This document shows positions 6,487 through 45,278 of a stretch of DNA of 64,000 nucleotides, in pieces (the first letter of the stretch is position 1; the number at the start of each line of letters is the position of its first letter). Location: NCBI RefSeq assembly GCF_945873775.1, contig NZ_CAMCEC010000003.1, forward strand, positions 1 to 64,000, given 5' to 3'. The translations under genes and the position numbers were made by a program. A model generated the notes under the pieces. The model was not told the DNA's origin. It ran no database searches and saw nothing but the letters and a program-made list of their open reading frames with translations. The stretch comes from an uncultured Treponema sp. (lineage in GTDB: Bacteria > Spirochaetota > Spirochaetia > Treponematales > Treponemataceae).

Positions 6487-7995
6487 TCAGCTGTGAATAG
6501 AAGTGTTGCGTACTGTAACGTCGTGCGCGCTTCCTTCGCTGATTGTTGTAGATGAAACAAGTGTAAGTTTTGCTTTTTGCTGAAGTTCTGGAATTGAAAG
6601 CGCGCCGCAGTTGCACATTGTGTGGATTACCTTGCTCATTGAAAGTGAAACATTGTCGTGCAAGCGTCCGGCATAAGGAACATAAGAGTCAACGCCTTCT
6701 TCAAACGCCATTCCCTTTTTTCCGCCGAGGTCATAACGCTGCCAGTTGCGCGCCCTGTTGCTTCCTTCGCCCCAGTATTCCTTTACGTAGTTTCCGTTGA
6801 TTATAAGCTTGTTTGTAGGAGACTCATCGAATCTTGCAAAGTAACGTCCGAGCATTACAAAATCCGCGCCCATTGCAAGAGCAAGTGTTATGTGGTAGTC
6901 GTGAACGATTCCGCCGTCTGAGCAGATTGGAACGTAGATTCCTGTCTTTGAGTAGTATTCATCGCGCGCTTTTGCAACTTCGATTGTAGCTGTGGCTTGT
7001 CCGCGTCCAATTCCTTTTTGCTCGCGTGTAATGCAGATTGAGCCGCCGCCGATTCCGATTTTTACAAAGTCCGCGCCGTTTTCTGCAAGGAACATAAATC
7101 CTTCGCGGTCAACAACGTTTCCAGCTCCAACTTTTACATCTTTGCCGAATTTTTCGTGGATGTCGTGGAGAGCTTTTGCCTGCCATTCTGAATATCCTTC
7201 GCTTGAGTCAAGGCACAAAATGTCAACACCAGCCTTCAAAAGAGCTGGAACTCTTTCCATATAGTCGCGTGTGTTGATTCCTGCTCCAACAATGTATCTG
7301 TGGTTAGTGTCCATAAGCTCATTTGGATGAGTTTCGTGGTTGTCGAAGTCTTTTCTGAATACAATTGAAACAAGATGATTTTTGTCATCGATTATAGGAA
7401 GCTGATTTACTTTGTGCGCCCATATTAAATCGTTTGCTGCGCTCAAAGTGATTCCGTCTTTACCTGTAACAAGTTTTGCAAAAGGCGTCATGTATTCGCT
7501 TACTTTTGAATTTGCAGGAACGTGGTCGATTCTAAAGTCGCGCTCTGTGATAATTCCTTCAAGTTTGCCGTGCGCAGTTCCATCGTCTGTTACGGCGATT
7601 GTGCTGTGTCCAGTTTGTTCTATTAAAGATACAACTTCTTCAAGAGTCTGATCCGGGCGGATATTTGAGTCGGAAGTTACAAATCCTGCTTTGTATGATT
7701 TTACGCGCGCAACCATTGCCGCCTGGTTTTCGATTGTCTGCGAACCGAATATAAAGCTGATTCCGCCTTCTTTTGCAAGGGCAATTGCCATTTTGTCATC
7801 AGAAACCGACTGCATGACTGCGCTTACCAAAGGAATGTTCATTGAAAGCGAAGGTTTTTCGCCTGATTTTTTGTTGAATCTTACAACAGGTGTTTTCAGT
7901 GAAACATTTTCTGGAATGCATTCTGCGGATGTGTAGCCGGGAATTAACAGATACTCACCGAATGTGTGAGACGGTTCTTCGTAAAAGTATGCCAT
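6487..7995 (-). CDS. guaB: Inosine-5'-monophosphate dehydrogenase
   Basis: Oxidises IMP to XMP with NAD+, the rate-limiting step of GMP synthesis. The protein has 502 aa. The catalytic Cys lies in [12 protein letters not shown], the phosphate site is DGGI, and a pair of CBS domains is inserted after about residue 90 ([17 protein letters not shown]). I place the start at the ATG at 7995 ([12 protein letters not shown]), which has AGAGGG just upstream; the open frame extends 18 codons further but without a family-like sequence. First gene of the guaB-purA pair, divergent from the chemoreceptor gene. Confidence 0.95.
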
Positions 7996-8218
7996 TTTGC
8001 CCTCTTGAAATGAAATTTGGCAGCTATAGTGCCTTAGAAATTTCAGCATATTATATAAAAAATGCCCTGTTCTGTCTATTCTTTAGTTATGGAGGAAAAA
8101 AACAACTAGCTCGTAAGCGAAGCGATTCAATCGCCTTTTTCTCTCCCTCCATGCCACCATCCTTTCCTTGCAACACTTAGGGCTGCGCCTTAAGAACCTG
8201 CTTGAATTACAATGTATT

Positions 8219-8295
8219 TTGTCATTATCCTACTTGACCCGATAATCTATTTGTTGTTGTTAAGTGGACTCCCGTGTCGGGGCATGGAAATGACA
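8219..8295. repeat. Dispersed REP-like repeat in the guaB-chemoreceptor gap
   Basis: Contains GTCATTATCCTACTTGACC and related arms. The remaining bases of the 7996-8485 gap hold GGCGATTGAATCGC-type dyads near 8120 and a TATAGA-N6-TCTATA dyad at 8340-8357 upstream of the chemoreceptor promoter. No gene was seen here. Confidence 0.6.
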
Positions 8296-8369
8296 ATTCG
8301 CTGAATATGCGGTAAGAAAAAATGCATGCGAATTTTATGTATAGAGGCAGTTCTATACAAACAAATCGC

Positions 8370-8399
8370 TTGACAATGTTGACTGGGGGGGGGTATTAT
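8370..8399 (+). promoter_or_regulatory. Chemoreceptor promoter with a poly-G tract in its spacer
   Basis: TTGACA at 8370-8375 and TATTAT at 8394-8399 are separated by 18 bp, of which the last nine are an uninterrupted G tract (8385-8393). Loss of one G would give the optimal 17-bp spacing, while gains would weaken the promoter. Transcription would start near 8406, giving a leader of about 80 nt. In T. pallidum and Neisseria, G tracts at promoters are known to vary expression; that it does so here is inference. Confidence 0.7.
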
Positions 8400-8485
8400 T
8401 ATTTTGTTTTTTGATTGCAAAGATGCAATTGCGGCAGCATCCCTGGAGGCGGGATAAATTTTAGTTGCAGTTGCAGGGGGGATAT

Positions 8486-38654: not shown

Positions 38655-38789
38655 TGAAAAAACAAAAAGGAAGCCGTAGCTTCCTTTTATCATCTTATCT
38701 ATACACATTCCTAAGAATGTATAAGCATTTTGCGGAATCTTAAAGATTCCTTGTTAGCAGGTTGACTAGAAAAATTAATCAGTAAGACT
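38655..38789 (-). ncRNA. tracrRNA of the type II-C CRISPR system
   Basis: On the minus strand, TTGACA (38814-38819) and TATAAA (38792-38797) with 16-bp spacing form a promoter. Directly after it the anti-repeat (38753-38789) is complementary to the CRISPR repeat, with a few mismatches and one bulge; TACTGATTAATTTT and AGTCAACCTGC are shared. Then come a GGAATC-TTTAA-GATTCC hairpin, an ATACATTC-TTAG-GAATGTGTAT hairpin, and an intrinsic terminator GGAAGC-TACG-GCTTCC followed by TTTTTGTTTTTT. About 130 nt long. It pairs with crRNA to load Cas9. Confidence 0.92.
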
Positions 38790-38893
38790 ATTTTATAATG
38801 ATAGAATATGATTTGTCAAATGATTTCTGACCAAATTTGCTATGCAAATATCGTAGTGTCAAGCACGGCAATCTTACCTAATATTATAGTACA

Positions 38894-39139: not shown

Positions 39140-42100
39140 ATGAAATATCGTTTAGGGCTTGATTTAGGAACAAATTCAATTGGCTGGGCTGTTTATTCTC
39201 TTGATGAAGACAACGAGCCTGAAAAACTTGAAGACCTCGGCGTAAGAATATTTTCAGACGGCCGGAATCCAAAGTCAAAAGAACCTCTCGCAGTAGAAAG
39301 AAGAACAGCACGCGGGCAACGCAGAATAATTTATAGAAGAAAACTCCGCAGAAGAGAAACTTTCCGGCTTTTGCAAAAGCAGGGGCTTCTTCCTGTAAAA
39401 AAAGATGAGGATCAATCGTTGAAACTTATGAATCCTTATGAGCTTCGCATAAAAGCCATTGATGAAAAACTTGAGCCGTTTGAGCTTGGACGCGTTTTGT
39501 TCAATCTTTCTGTTCGGCGCGGATTTAAAAGCAATAGAAAAGACGGCTCGCAAGAGGAAACAAAAGAAAATTCGAAATCTGAAAAACTGACGCAGGCGGA
39601 CAAATGCTCAAACCTTTCAAATGCAATAAAAACTTCCGGCTGCAGAACGCTTGGAGAATTTCTTTGGAAAAACAGAGAAAAAAACGGCGGAACTCGCTTT
39701 GCTCCAAACAGAATGAATTATTATCCTGTACGGCAGCTTTATATAGAAGAATTTAATCTGATACGGCAAAAACAAGAGCCGTTTTATCCTGACGTTGAAT
39801 GGGAAGAAATCTATGATAAGATTTTCTTTCAGCGGCCGCTAAAAATTCAAGAGCGCGGAAAATGCCAGTATATGCCGGAAAAAGAAAGAACATTCAAGGC
39901 GATGCCGTGCGCGCAAAAAATCCGCATTTTGCAAGACGTTTTCAATCTTTCTTTTATTGCGGAAGGAAAATCAAAAAAGCTTCTTCCAGAATGGCAGAAC
40001 GAAATCATAAAGCTGCTTGATTCAAAAGAAAAAGTGACTTTTAAGGAAATCCGCAAAAAACTTGGTCTTGATGAAAATATTACTTTCAATCTTGAATCAG
40101 AAACTCGCGACTTTTTGCAGGGAAACTCAACTGCTGTAAAACTTCGAAGCAAAAATCGTTTTGGCGAGATTTGGGATTCGTTAAGCCTTGAAGAGCAGGA
40201 CAACATTGTTGAATGTCTGATAACTGCACAGGAAGATTCCGATGTTCAAAAAATGCTTGAAAAATACGATTTGTCTCCTGAACAGAAGAATTTCATCACA
40301 AAGCTTGTTCTTCCAAGCGGAACAACGAGTTTCTGCCGAGAATTCTCTGAAAATGTTGTGAACAAAATCGAAGAAAATGCAAAAATCTTCGCAGATTCTA
40401 ATGAACGCACGGAACGCTGTCAGATTCACAATGTGATTCAGGAACTTGGCTATACTTATGCGAATCAGTCTGTGGAAAAATGCAGCGAGCTTCCTTATTA
40501 CGGAAAAGTTCTTGCTGGCTCAACGATGGGAGCAAAGCCGAATCCTAAAAATGACGAGGAACGTTTTGGAAAAATAAGCAATCCGACTGTCCATATCGCG
40601 TTGAACCAGACCCGCGTTGTTGTAAATTCTCTTATAAAAGAATTCGGAAAGCCTACGCAGGTTGTAATAGAAGTAAGCCGGGAGCTAAAAGCCAGTCGAG
40701 AAGCTAAAAATAAAATGCAGCAGAAAATTGCGGCAAACCAAAGGCAGAACGAGATTCTTAACAAGAAAATAAAGGACGCGAATTCTTCTATTCTATTTCC
40801 AAACCGAACTGACCGTCTAAAATACAAGCTCTGGGAAGAACTTGATCCGGAAAACGCGCTAAACAGAAGATGCGTTTATTGCGGAAAACTAATTTCGGGC
40901 GCAGATATTTTCAATGACAACACCGTTCAGATTGAGCATATTCTTCCATTTGGACTCACTTTGTGGGATTCCGAGCATAACAAGACTATTGCCCATACAA
41001 AATGCAACGCATTCAAAGGCGAAAATACACCTTACGAGGCTTTCTTTAAAAATCCAAAAGGCTACAACTGGAATGAAATTCTTGAAAGAGCTTCGCATTT
41101 AAAAGATCCTCAGAAAAGGCGGCTTTTTTCAGAAAATGCGATGGAAACTTTTGAAAAGGAAAGCGGATTTATTTCGCGCCAGCTTACTGACAACGCTTAT
41201 CTTTCAAAAATGGCTTTGAAATATTTGAAGTGCGTTGTTGAAAAAGATTCCAATGTCTGGGCTGTTAGCGGCGGAATGACAAAACTTTTGCGCGATAAAT
41301 GGGAAATAGATTCAATCTTGAAAAGAAAAATCGGAGAAAATGAAATTTTTCATTTTGAACTGAAAGATGAGCAGATTGGAACTTACAAAAAGAACCGGTA
41401 TGACCATCGCCATCATGCTCTTGATGCAAGCGTAATCGCATTGATTGACCGATCAATGGTTCAGCAAATTTCGCGTCTTAATCAGATTGGAAAGAAAAAC
41501 AGAATTGAAGTTCCGCAGATGCCTGTTATAAGAACAGACCTAATAGAAAAGACAAAAAATATTGTCGTAAGTTTTAAGCCTGACCACGGCGCACAAGGCA
41601 AGCTTTCTAAAGAAACTCTGCTTGGAAAAATAAAAATGGCAGAGCAGGTTGCAATCTCAAAGATTCGGGAAGAAGATATTGCTTTCATAAAGAATGAGAA
41701 AGTCCGTTCAGAGTTTGAAAAAAAACTTGCAGAACTTAAGGATATTAAAAAAGTTCAAAAGGAGCTTAAGGAACTTTATCCTGTTGTTTGGGTTTTTAAG
41801 GAATATTACGTTTGCAAGGAAAATATTCTAGGGCTAAAAGAAAAGGATTTTGATTCGATAATCGATAAGAAAATCCAAAAAGAGCTTCGCGAATTTACGG
41901 AAGCCCACAAATCTGAAAAAATAGAAGATGTAATGCAGAAGTTCAGCGAGCAAACAAAAATCAAAAAAGTCCGCTGCATAAACCGTGTTCAAACTCCGAT
42001 TGAAATTAAAAATAAAGACGGCACAATGCGTTATCTTTGTCCTGAAGATTATTTTGCCGCTGTTGTCTGGCAGATTCCTCCAAAAAATAAAGATTCGAAG

Positions 42101-42487
42101 CCTGCGTACAAGGCAACGTTTATTCGCCGTGACCAAGTTGATTTAGACGGAAATCCGAAAATTATGACTAAGCCTCATCCTGCCGCAAAGAAGATATGTA
42201 TTCTGCATAAAAATGATTATCTTGAATTTGTGGACAAGGGAAACTGGTACAAGTGCAGAATTACGGGATATGCAGCTACAAGCAATAAGTTTGATATTCG
42301 TCCGATTTATGCCGTTACAAATTGCGCTGACTGGATAATTTCTACAGATGATTCTGTGCTTGAGCCTTGCTGGAAGCCAACGCCGACTCAAAACTGGATT
42401 TCAGTAAACGTTCTCTTTGGAGAAAAATTCGCCCGCCCGATAACTGTAAATCCTATAGGCCGGGTGTTCAGAAAAAATAAGAATTGA
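39140..42487 (+). CDS. cas9: Cas9, type II-C
   Basis: RNA-guided DNA nuclease of 1115 aa, a compact II-C size. RuvC-I is LGLDLGTNSIGWAVYSLDED at residue 4, followed by the Arg-rich bridge helix ERRTARGQRRIIYRRKLRRRE. RuvC-II lies in VVIEVSRELKAS. The HNH domain holds QIEHILPFG (catalytic His) with CVYCGKLI upstream and HTKCNAFKG after. RuvC-III is YDHRHHALDASVIALID. The last 300 residues would form the wedge and PAM-interacting domain. All catalytic residues appear present. GGAG precedes the ATG, and cas1 follows after 31 bp. No csn2 or cas4 is present, consistent with II-C. Confidence 0.97.
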   Translation: MKYRLGLDLGTNSIGWAVYSLDEDNEPEKLEDLGVRIFSDGRNPKSKEPLAVERRTARGQRRIIYRRKLRRRETFRLLQKQGLLPVKKDEDQSLKLMNPYELRIKAIDEKLEPFELGRVLFNLSVRRGFKSNRKDGSQEETKENSKSEKLTQADKCSNLSNAIKTSGCRTLGEFLWKNREKNGGTRFAPNRMNYYPVRQLYIEEFNLIRQKQEPFYPDVEWEEIYDKIFFQRPLKIQERGKCQYMPEKERTFKAMPCAQKIRILQDVFNLSFIAEGKSKKLLPEWQNEIIKLLDSKEKVTFKEIRKKLGLDENITFNLESETRDFLQGNSTAVKLRSKNRFGEIWDSLSLEEQDNIVECLITAQEDSDVQKMLEKYDLSPEQKNFITKLVLPSGTTSFCREFSENVVNKIEENAKIFADSNERTERCQIHNVIQELGYTYANQSVEKCSELPYYGKVLAGSTMGAKPNPKNDEERFGKISNPTVHIALNQTRVVVNSLIKEFGKPTQVVIEVSRELKASREAKNKMQQKIAANQRQNEILNKKIKDANSSILFPNRTDRLKYKLWEELDPENALNRRCVYCGKLISGADIFNDNTVQIEHILPFGLTLWDSEHNKTIAHTKCNAFKGENTPYEAFFKNPKGYNWNEILERASHLKDPQKRRLFSENAMETFEKESGFISRQLTDNAYLSKMALKYLKCVVEKDSNVWAVSGGMTKLLRDKWEIDSILKRKIGENEIFHFELKDEQIGTYKKNRYDHRHHALDASVIALIDRSMVQQISRLNQIGKKNRIEVPQMPVIRTDLIEKTKNIVVSFKPDHGAQGKLSKETLLGKIKMAEQVAISKIREEDIAFIKNEKVRSEFEKKLAELKDIKKVQKELKELYPVVWVFKEYYVCKENILGLKEKDFDSIIDKKIQKELREFTEAHKSEKIEDVMQKFSEQTKIKKVRCINRVQTPIEIKNKDGTMRYLCPEDYFAAVVWQIPPKNKDSKPAYKATFIRRDQVDLDGNPKIMTKPHPAAKKICILHKNDYLEFVDKGNWYKCRITGYAATSNKFDIRPIYAVTNCADWIISTDDSVLEPCWKPTPTQNWISVNVLFGEKFARPITVNPIGRVFRKNKN

Positions 42488-42518
42488 GTACTTAATTTCT
42501 CATACCGATAAACAAAGT

Positions 42519-43421
42519 ATGCTGAATAGAATTCTAGAGATTTGTGAAGAAAATCGCTATGTTTCTCTAAGCCGCGGCTTTGTTGTTATCCAGCATGGAA
42601 CTGAGACATTGGGGCAAGTTCCGCTGGATGACGTGTCGGTTCTTCTGCTTTCTGCGCAGGGAATTACGCTCAGCAAGAATATTCTTAACGCTCTTTCTGA
42701 ACGGGGCTGCGTTACGGTCTTGTGCGGAAAGAATTTTATTCCGCAGAGCATGGTTTTGCCTGTAGCGAATCACTGCCTTTTTACAAAAATTATAAAAAAT
42801 CAGATAAACGCTTCCGAGCCGTTAAAGAAAAGAATTTGGCAGCAGATAGTAATCCGAAAAATCGAAAATCAGGCAAAAGTCTTAAAATTATACGAAAAAG
42901 ATTATTCTCTTGTTGAAAAGATTTCAAAACTTGTAAAGTCTGGCGACAGCGACAACCGGGAAGCTTATGCCGCAAAAATTTACTGGACAACGCTGTTCGG
43001 AAAAGAATTCCGCCGCGACCGAAACGAAGAAGGAATCAATTCATTTCTGAACTACGGATATGCGGTTATGCGAGCGGCAATGACAAGAGCAGTCTGCGCT
43101 TCGGGACTTATTCCGGCTTTAGGTGTGAACCACAGCAACAATTTAAATCAGTTTTGCCTTGCCGATGACTTTTTTGAAATCTATCGTCCGCTTGTGGATT
43201 CTATTGTCTATAAAATGTGCTTGGAAGGCGAGGAAGAGCTTTCGCCAAAAAACAAAAAACGGCTTACGGATTCTTTGTGGCTAAAAGTAAAAACTTCAGA
43301 AGGCTATGCTCCGGCATTTCAGAGTATGCAGTATATGACGGCTTCCTATGTTCACGCACTGGAAGATAAAAATTCTGCCATTGAGCTTCCGATTTGGGAG
43401 CAAGGTGAAGAAGATGAATAA
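42519..43421 (+). CDS. cas1: Cas1, type II
   Basis: Integrase of 300 aa that, with Cas2, inserts new spacers at the leader end of the array. The type II pattern is clear: MLNRILEICEENRYVSLSRGFVVIQHG, LDDVSVLLLSAQGITLS, then the metal-binding residues in YAAKIYWTTLFG (Glu region), LGVNHSNNLNQFCLADDFFEIYRPLVD (His and Asp). The end overlaps the cas2 start by 8 bp. Length and key residues look normal, so acquisition is probably working. Confidence 0.95.
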   Translation: MLNRILEICEENRYVSLSRGFVVIQHGTETLGQVPLDDVSVLLLSAQGITLSKNILNALSERGCVTVLCGKNFIPQSMVLPVANHCLFTKIIKNQINASEPLKKRIWQQIVIRKIENQAKVLKLYEKDYSLVEKISKLVKSGDSDNREAYAAKIYWTTLFGKEFRRDRNEEGINSFLNYGYAVMRAAMTRAVCASGLIPALGVNHSNNLNQFCLADDFFEIYRPLVDSIVYKMCLEGEEELSPKNKKRLTDSLWLKVKTSEGYAPAFQSMQYMTASYVHALEDKNSAIELPIWEQGEEDE

Positions 43422-43749
43422 TCTTGAATTGAACAGGTACGAGCTTATGTGGATGATGGTCTTGTTTGATTTGCCGGTGATTGAAAAGAAAGAGCGGAAA
43501 GCCGCAACTGACTTTAGAAATTTTCTTTTGGACAATGGATTTTCTATGGTTCAGTATTCAATTTACACAAAACTTTTTTCTGGAAAAGATGCCTGCGAAA
43601 AATATTATAAACAGATAGTAAGCAACTTGCCTCCAGATGGAAAAGTTGATATTCTTACAATAACAGATAGGCAATATTCCAATATAATCAGCTATTCGTC
43701 AGGAAATAAAATTGAAAAAAAAGCACCTGAACAACTTATGTTATTTTGA
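43414..43749 (+). CDS. cas2: Cas2, type II
   Basis: A 111-aa partner of Cas1: YELMWMMVLFDLPVIEKKERKAATDFRNFLLDNGFSMVQYSIYTKLF is the standard Cas2 start with the FDLP Asp, and the ending VDILTITDRQYSNI is typical of type II. I chose ATG 43414 (MNNLELNRYE), which overlaps the cas1 end, over the longer frame. The CRISPR array terminator hairpin lies 18 bp after its stop. Confidence 0.94.
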   Translation: MNNLELNRYELMWMMVLFDLPVIEKKERKAATDFRNFLLDNGFSMVQYSIYTKLFSGKDACEKYYKQIVSNLPPDGKVDILTITDRQYSNIISYSSGNKIEKKAPEQLMLF

Positions 43750-43766
43750 TTTTTCCTCAAAAAAAA

Positions 43767-43820
43767 ATACATCCAATGTATTCTATTTCTTTATCTCAAA
43801 AAGAATTACATCGGATGTAT
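43767..43820 (-). terminator. Intrinsic terminator at the cas2-side end of the array
   Basis: Arms 43767-43783 and 43803-43820 pair over 16 bp (ATACATCC with GGATGTAT, ATGTA with TACAT). On the minus strand the hairpin is followed by nine T. It would stop minus-strand array transcripts before cas2, and it overlaps the first two bases of repeat 1. The same stretch is also where the leader would be if new spacers enter at this end. Confidence 0.75.
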
Positions 43821-44426
43821 TATAACTGATTAATTTTCCAAGTCAACCTGCAACCTACCGCAAGAGGCGAGTACCCTCTTGGCAATTATAACTGATTAAT
43901 TTTCCAAGTCAACCTGCAACAAACTTCGACTCAGAAATTCATCGCTGTTTATTATAACTGATTAATTTTCCAAGTCAACCTGCAACTGAGCCGCCCTCAT
44001 TATCACATAATCATGCATTATAACTGATTAATTTTCCAAGTCAACCTGCAACTCAAGATTACTTCTTGTCTGCACTTCCTTTATTATAACTGATTAATTT
44101 TCCAAGTCAACCTGCAACTCCTGTTAATGGCGTTTCTACCGCAAGAGGATTATAACTGATTAATTTTCCAAGTCAACCTGCAACACAAAGATGTTGTTTA
44201 CAACGGTTCCCAAAATTATAACTGATTAATTTTCCAAGTCAACCTGCAACTAAGTTTTCATAATCAAAACCTCCGATGCTATTATAACTGATTAATTTTC
44301 CAAGTCAACCTGCAACAAAGTTACGTAAGTTGTATTTGTTGAATCGATTATAACTGATTAATTTTCCAAGTCAACCTGCAACAATGCGCTTTCGGGTGCT
44401 GGGATTATGTCGATTATAACTGATTA
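43819..44426 (-). CRISPR. Type II-C CRISPR array, nine full repeats and one truncated
   Basis: Identical 36-bp repeats begin at 43819, 43885, 43951, 44017, 44083, 44149, 44215, 44281 and 44347. All nine spacers are exactly 30 bp. A tenth repeat is cut to 14 bp (44413-44426). Minus-strand repeats start GTTGCAGGTTGACT and end CAGTTATAAT. The tracrRNA complementarity and the T-tailed hairpin at 43767-43820 both fix transcription on the minus strand. Each repeat contains TTGACT, 16 bp and TATAAT, so every spacer could have its own promoter. Spacers at 43855 and 44119 share 13 nt end to end. Confidence 0.97.
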
Positions 44427-45278
44427 CTTCTCCACATAGCTTTGGGCAAAGTCGATTACACATTCATCTCTTCTGTTTTCTTCGCATTCAGCATATCCTA
44501 CGCCGGCTATATTGTACCTTTTGTTCATAATATTTTTTCTGTGTCCGCGTGAATCTACTCCATCGTCAATTAAAAATTTTACAACCGTATTTCTTGCTGT
44601 GTCTACGCAATAAAATATATTTTCAGCAGTCGCCATAAACATGCCGTAGTTTTGCATTCTTTCAGCTGGTGTCGAGCCGTCAACTCCTTTGTGCCCAAGC
44701 TGGTCAGTTACTACTTGGGTTTCCGCATGGCCTCTTGCAGCTTGTGTAAGTTCTTTAGATGGTTTAAGTGGCGGGCGTGGAGTTTGTTCGTACATATAAT
44801 TTATGCATTCTTTTACAGCCGCAGGACCTTCTTGTGTGCAAGTTGTCCTGTAGTACGGACCAGCCGCCGACATTCTTTTTTCGACATAGTTGTATCCATC
44901 GAAATTTTCCAGCCTTGGAACAATATATAAATCAGCGTATTGCTTTGGATTTGTTCTTGCTTTGTTCATTTCCAGAATTACATTTTTTTCAAAGTCGTCC
45001 AGATAATCAACATTTCTTGCGGTGTCTAGCAATTTAATGTTCCACAAAGAATTTTTGCTTTTTGCTTTGGCGCTTGCAGTGCTGCTAGGGTTTTGTTTGC
45101 TTTTGGCATTGCTTTGCGCTTTTTGCTGAGTTCTTTTTTTACTGTTTGAAGGGGTGGCAGCTTTTCTTGTGGTAGAAGTTGAATTTGCAGGCTTCTTTTT
45201 TTTCGTAGAAGATGACTGGCAAAATAAAAATGCAGAAATAAAAATTGTAAATAAAACAAAAAGAATACGCTTCTTCAT
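44424..45278 (-). CDS. Secreted CAP/SCP-domain protein
   Basis: A 284-aa exported protein with a signal peptide (MKKRILFVLFTIFISAFLFCQ; the Cys could be a lipid site). A Lys/Ser/Thr-rich linker (residues 22-75) follows, then a CAP domain with VILEMNKARTNPKQYA, LTQAARGHAETQ, HKGVDGSTPAERMQNYG, ATAENIFY and HRKNIMNKRYNIAGVGY. The His and Glu residues that form the CAP cleft are present. CAP proteins of bacteria have varied, mostly unknown envelope roles. Its stop codon lies inside the truncated CRISPR repeat. GAGGTG precedes the start. Confidence 0.87.
   Translation of the reverse strand: MKKRILFVLFTIFISAFLFCQSSSTKKKKPANSTSTTRKAATPSNSKKRTQQKAQSNAKSKQNPSSTASAKAKSKNSLWNIKLLDTARNVDYLDDFEKNVILEMNKARTNPKQYADLYIVPRLENFDGYNYVEKRMSAAGPYYRTTCTQEGPAAVKECINYMYEQTPRPPLKPSKELTQAARGHAETQVVTDQLGHKGVDGSTPAERMQNYGMFMATAENIFYCVDTARNTVVKFLIDDGVDSRGHRKNIMNKRYNIAGVGYAECEENRRDECVIDFAQSYVEK

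Follow-up and report, generated by a model that had tools for sequence, protein, structure and literature searches.

Cas9 proteins of the Neisseria meningitidis type recognize PAMs of the form N4GATT or N4CC. In the type II-C system of this bacterium promoters carried by the repeats have been shown, and such promoters have also been noted for the type II-C system of Clostridium cellulolyticum, whose CcCas9 recognizes the PAM NNNNGNA and works with crRNAs holding 23-26 nt of spacer (PMC7038990). For CjCas9 of Campylobacter jejuni, PMC9433092 cites the PAM N4RYAC. PAMs can be predicted from natural targets by alignment of protospacer flanks (PMC8482600). The locus described here lies at 39140-44439 of the window, by which we mean the whole 64,000-nt stretch of DNA that was analysed, and consists of cas9, cas1, cas2, an array of nine spacers and, on the minus strand, a tracrRNA gene that has a promoter and a terminator, as follows.

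38665-38820, minus strand: tracrRNA gene, upstream of cas9, with anti-repeat duplex, promoter-like element and terminator
39140-42487, plus strand: cas9, 1115 aa, compact, type II-C-like (TIGR01865, 568 bits)
42519-43421, plus strand: cas1, type II, NMENI type (TIGR03639, 266 bits)
43348-43749, plus strand: cas2 (TIGR01573, 65.7 bits; family match from ORF residue 34)
43750-43818: AT-rich stretch, a putative leader, containing an imperfect inverted repeat of 15 bp (43766-43780 / 43807-43821)
43819-44439, minus strand: CRISPR array of nine perfect 36-nt repeats, one degenerate repeat and nine 30-nt spacers

The features of type II are present: positions D8, H600, N623, H759 and D762 of Cas9, the catalytic RuvC and HNH residues, are invariant in 9 relatives, and a tracrRNA with an anti-repeat lies beside cas9. 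Neither csn2 nor cas4 was found in the operon among ORFs of at least 100 aa and with NCBIfam profiles, and the gene content is therefore that of type II-C. By gene content and sequence similarity, the only bases of the subtype assignment, the locus is a standard type II-C CRISPR-Cas9 system. The style of the genes suggests a gut spirochaete akin to Treponema. It resembles the N. meningitidis system in having cas9, cas1 and cas2 only, a compact Cas9, an array that runs opposite to the cas genes, a promoter-like element in each repeat and PAM bases expected from position 5. The best PDB sequence matches of the Cas9 are entries such as 6jdq and 6kc8, which we take to be of the NmeCas9 type; however, the match covers just residues 2-324 and 477-726, and the PAM-interacting end is not recognisably similar by sequence. 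An AlphaFold model of the protein was too poor for PAM contacts to be read (mean pLDDT 61.5, pTM 0.32). An insert of ~50 aa (residues about 834-886; window 41639-41800) separates the end of RuvC from the C-terminal part; it is present in the relatives G048 and G199 and missing from six others. The Cas9 of G048, the nearest relative, is 95% identical, and the corresponding array region (L043, about 6969-8400; G048:C17) reads N (masked).

The perfect repeats start at 43819, 43885, 43951, 44017, 44083, 44149, 44215, 44281 and 44347, and the last, degenerate one at 44413; the latter (window 44413-44439) extends over the stop codon of a gene on the minus strand (44424-45278) with a weak CAP/YkwD match. 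The tracrRNA holds an anti-repeat at about 38745-38780 that forms a duplex of -40.2 kcal/mol with the repeat, a promoter-like TTGACA-18-TAAAAT at 38819-38790, and a terminator at 38688-38665 in which a 10-bp stem is followed by TGTTTTTT. Because the tracrRNA, with its promoter and terminator, is on the minus strand, the crRNA strand is also minus, and the direction given in the earlier note was right. On this strand each repeat ends in TTGACT-16-TATAAT, which matches the promoter consensus and is directed into the spacer, so that each repeat looks like a candidate promoter for the next spacer. An array read opposite to the cas genes, with putative promoters borne by the repeats, is a frequent trait of type II-C, found here by consensus, and CcCas9 shares both the array orientation and the promoter at the repeat end.

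We found that two spacers of the array overlap end to start.

43855-43884, minus strand: spacer 1, CTACCGCAAGAGGCGAGTACCCTCTTGGCA; first 30 nt of the joined 47-nt target in crRNA direction
44119-44148, minus strand: spacer 5, TCCTGTTAATGGCGTTTCTACCGCAAGAGG; last 30 nt of the joined target in crRNA direction

The last 13 nt of 44119-44148 equal the first 13 nt of 43855-43884 exactly, as the earlier note had reported, and the shared 13-mer, CTACCGCAAGAGG, has no further copy on either strand of the 2.59-Mb genome. An end-to-start match of at least 13 nt is expected by chance about 3e-6 times per nine-spacer array (72 ordered pairs x 2 orientations x about 1.33 x 4^-13, with uniform bases), which puts a figure on the chance that had been called very small. 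Beyond the overlap, spacer 5 supplies the 3' flank of spacer 1, beginning AAACGCCA; given minus-strand crRNAs, the joined 47-mer and this predicted flank had been derived correctly, the contiguity of the 47-nt target being deduced from the two spacer sequences. Spacer 1 also contains a 7-bp inverted repeat, CAAGAGG-CGAGTAC-CCTCTTG, which makes a hairpin possible in both protospacer and crRNA. Spacer 5 would be older than spacer 1 if the old end of the array is the one with the degenerate repeat.

The earlier note had proposed looking for the 47-mer in phage and plasmid data, and this search, made with the 47-mer or its core, returned no invader from IMG/VR, 50,697 phages, 72,556 plasmids and GTDB contigs. 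Its core, allowing up to 3 mismatches, led to no invader in 274 genomes of the family, and spacer 1 alone, at the same tolerance, matched only the array itself in 200 genomes of the genus. Several candidates were rejected. A 20-mer match on a Pseudomonas contig in GTDB was attributed to chance, as was MT839203, in which a 17-nt match extends to just 20/47 across the whole target, and codon-degenerate searches with the peptides PVNGVSTARGEYPLG and PRGYSPLAVETPLTG gave a single unconvincing match (L053, 19/30).

That two unrelated spacers simply match by chance is scarcely credible: fortuitous identities of 7-8 nt do occur between spacers of the array, but the observed identity is 13 nt, exact and end to start, at the expectation given above. 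An origin within the array, by recombination or re-capture of array DNA, might be suggested by the presence of both spacers in one array, four repeats apart. However, the portion of spacer 1 outside the overlap is absent from elsewhere in the genome and from same-genus genomes, and neither spacer holds repeat sequence; an outside template is therefore needed, which leaves such an origin very improbable. Somewhat more deserving of attention, yet still unlikely, is the view that the spacers came from different invaders with a common conserved 13-nt motif, in which case no such 47-nt target ever existed and the flank has been predicted wrongly. The collections searched yielded no invader with the 47-mer, one arm of the spacer 1 inverted repeat falls within the shared 13-mer and structured motifs can recur, and other spacers of the array target genes conserved among many microviruses. 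A common motif would nevertheless rarely end at one spacer's end and begin at the other's start: shuffled spacers shared a 13-mer at any position in 3 of 3002 trials (~1e-3), and the form that requires both ends is far rarer (~3e-6). The exact end-to-start overlap thus gives good support to the claim that both spacers derive from the same invader and the same strand, related variants of one invader being a further possibility, and we conclude that spacers 1 and 5 very probably share an invader.

Five of the other spacers have recognizable targets.

43921-43950, minus strand: spacer 2; matches MT135425 and MT135276 at 24/30 and Dulem virus 253 at 26/30 (all Microviridae); flank GCATGTCA / GCATTCTA
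43987-44016, minus strand: spacer 3; matches the rep gene of MT135425, MT135276 and Dulem virus 253 at 26-27/30; flank ATTTACCG / TTTTCCCG
44053-44082, minus strand: spacer 4; matches genes for the major capsid protein of microviruses at up to 26/30; flank GGATAATC
44185-44214, minus strand: spacer 6; matches microvirus OP209176.1 at 27/30; flank TAATTGCA
44383-44412, minus strand: spacer 9; matches a transposase gene on viral contig IMGVR_UViG_3300032007_002269 at 30/30; flank GTATACCG

At least 4 of the 9 spacers are directed against Microviridae. In particular, a single 5-kb pig microvirus, MT135425.1, is matched by spacers 2, 3 and 4 at 24, 26 and 26 of 30 positions, while 3000 shuffled spacers reached a maximum of 22/30, and its relatives MT135276.1 and Dulem virus 253 are matched by the same three spacers. 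These spacers encode TSTQKFIAV, LSRPHYHIIM and QDYFLSALPF, each of which is identical in one of the three viruses. In these viruses and in OP209176.1, the protospacers of spacers 2, 3, 4 and 6 are all found on one strand; it is the coding (virion-sense) strand with which the crRNAs pair. The target of spacer 9 is on a 9-kb viral contig, where exonuclease and SSB genes neighbour the transposase gene (PHROG 8463). With up to 3 mismatches, spacers 3, 7 and 9 matched only the array itself in 200 same-genus genomes, and exact 17-21-nt patterns from spacers 3, 7, 2 and 8 found no match in IMG/VR. A microviral prophage was also seen in a genome of the same genus (L080, 4478-11042; G097:C13, about 370477-377041). 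It encodes a Phage_F capsid protein (PF02305, E 1.9e-46), Rep (PF23343) and a pilot-like protein, and is bounded by perfect 23-bp direct repeats, ACTTCCTATAACGCGCATTCTGT; the gene on one side, named by eye, is presumably mfd-like, and a tRNA-Pro lies on the other. The element was possibly integrated by a dif-type (XerCD) route. The spacers of the array do not match this prophage, which is an independent sign that microviruses enter this lineage.

The flank of spacer 1 obtained from the overlap, AAACGCCA, can be compared in crRNA direction with that of the exact target of spacer 9, GTATACCG, these two being the most trustworthy, and with that of the best diverged target of spacer 3, ATTTACCG or TTTTCCCG. 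All three have CC at positions 6-7, and most have a purine at position 5. The CC in the flank of spacer 3 belongs to glycine codons kept in three related viruses, and it was therefore probably also present in the true target. The motif NNNNRYC, a reading made post hoc once the flanks had been seen, fits spacers 1 and 9, spacer 3 in 2 of 3 viruses, and spacer 2 in the pig viruses only; it fails for spacers 4 (GGATAATC) and 6 (TAATTGCA) in the available viruses, which differ from these spacers at no fewer than 3-4 positions. With random sites drawn from the same viruses as the reference, the similarity among all six flanks exceeds expectation (P 0.009), but for the CC run in three flanks P is 0.056, and spacers 1 and 9 taken as a pair show no significance (P 0.25-0.47). 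Conservation at positions 3-4 (A, T) equals that at position 7 and may reflect base composition.

These data leave about an even chance that spacers 1 and 5 do stem from one invader and that the flank is nevertheless uninformative, the PAM being laxer or elsewhere (e.g. only the A/T-rich positions 3-4) and the CC coincidental. The statistics are weak, CC is missing from the diverged targets of spacers 4 and 6, and type II-C PAMs are the most diverse within type II (PMC8482600). On the other side, CC at 6-7 and a purine at 5 occur in the sole exact protospacer as well as in the best of the diverged ones, and the array's own flank, GTTGCAGG, is without RYC at 5-7, which is consistent with self-avoidance. 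As a working hypothesis with modest statistical backing, we tentatively place the PAM near NNNNRCC or the looser NNNNRYC, as read from the aligned flanks; a C at position 7 together with a purine at position 5 is put forward just as tentatively. The PAM had earlier been predicted within AAACGCC. What stands of this is the CC at 6-7 and the purine at 5, which recur in the flanks of spacers 9 and 3, whereas spacers 4 and 6 are at odds with it. The overlap had further been said to reveal a candidate PAM; since one overlap provides one flank, it could never show a PAM alone, and what has been gained is a narrower candidate, NNNNRCC/NNNNRYC. The predicted motif differs from N4GATT and N4CC of NmeCas9. 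With CcCas9 it has the purine at position 5 in common, but has C rather than A at position 7. Compared with the CjCas9 motif in the form cited above, the candidate N4RYC shares R5 and Y6 and again has C instead of A at position 7.

We consider it quite probable that this is an ordinary II-C locus in which overlapping protospacers of one mobile element were captured on two occasions, the flank of spacer 1 pointing to a PAM near NNNNRCC/NNNNRYC. The two captures would have come from one strand of the element, offset by 17 nt, with Cas9 selecting PAM-flanked sites and Cas1-Cas2 taking both pieces, presumably because both adjoined a PAM. If crRNAs start from the promoter within the upstream repeat, about 22-24 nt of spacer would be used, a length that can be likened to the 23-26 nt of CcCas9 crRNAs. 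Starting about 7 nt into the spacer, they would leave guides 1 and 5 overlapping by only about 6 nt, and Cas9 with the two guides would cut the 47-nt site about 17 bp apart. The spacer 1 PAM would then lie within the target of spacer 5, 10-17 nt from the PAM end of guide 5, so that both guides may lose strength through an escape mutation at this site.

For most Cas9s known from metagenomes it is chiefly the PAM that is lacking and, if the reading is right, a compact Cas9 of 1115 aa gains a concrete, testable PAM prediction. In contrast to the alignment of protospacer flanks, one flank was here taken from a second spacer and needed no invader genome; a literature search found no paper using overlapping spacers as such a shortcut to a PAM flank. 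The approach gives a flank even where the invader is unsampled and could be applied to all known arrays. Taken together, the results are solid in describing an ordinary II-C locus, a neat inference and a useful host-virus link. It is a rather more doubtful proposition, though one worth stating, that all parts of a joint reading hold at once: a PAM of NNNNRCC/NNNNRYC undescribed so far, a lineage repeatedly attacked by ssDNA microviruses, to which this array would testify directly, and overlapping spacers that can be used for invader-free PAM flanks. Treponema was among the microvirus hosts predicted in a lemur virome paper (PMC11281440). The records of MT135425, MT135276 and Dulem virus 253 name no bacterial host, and for this clade of pig and lemur gut microviruses the array is host evidence.
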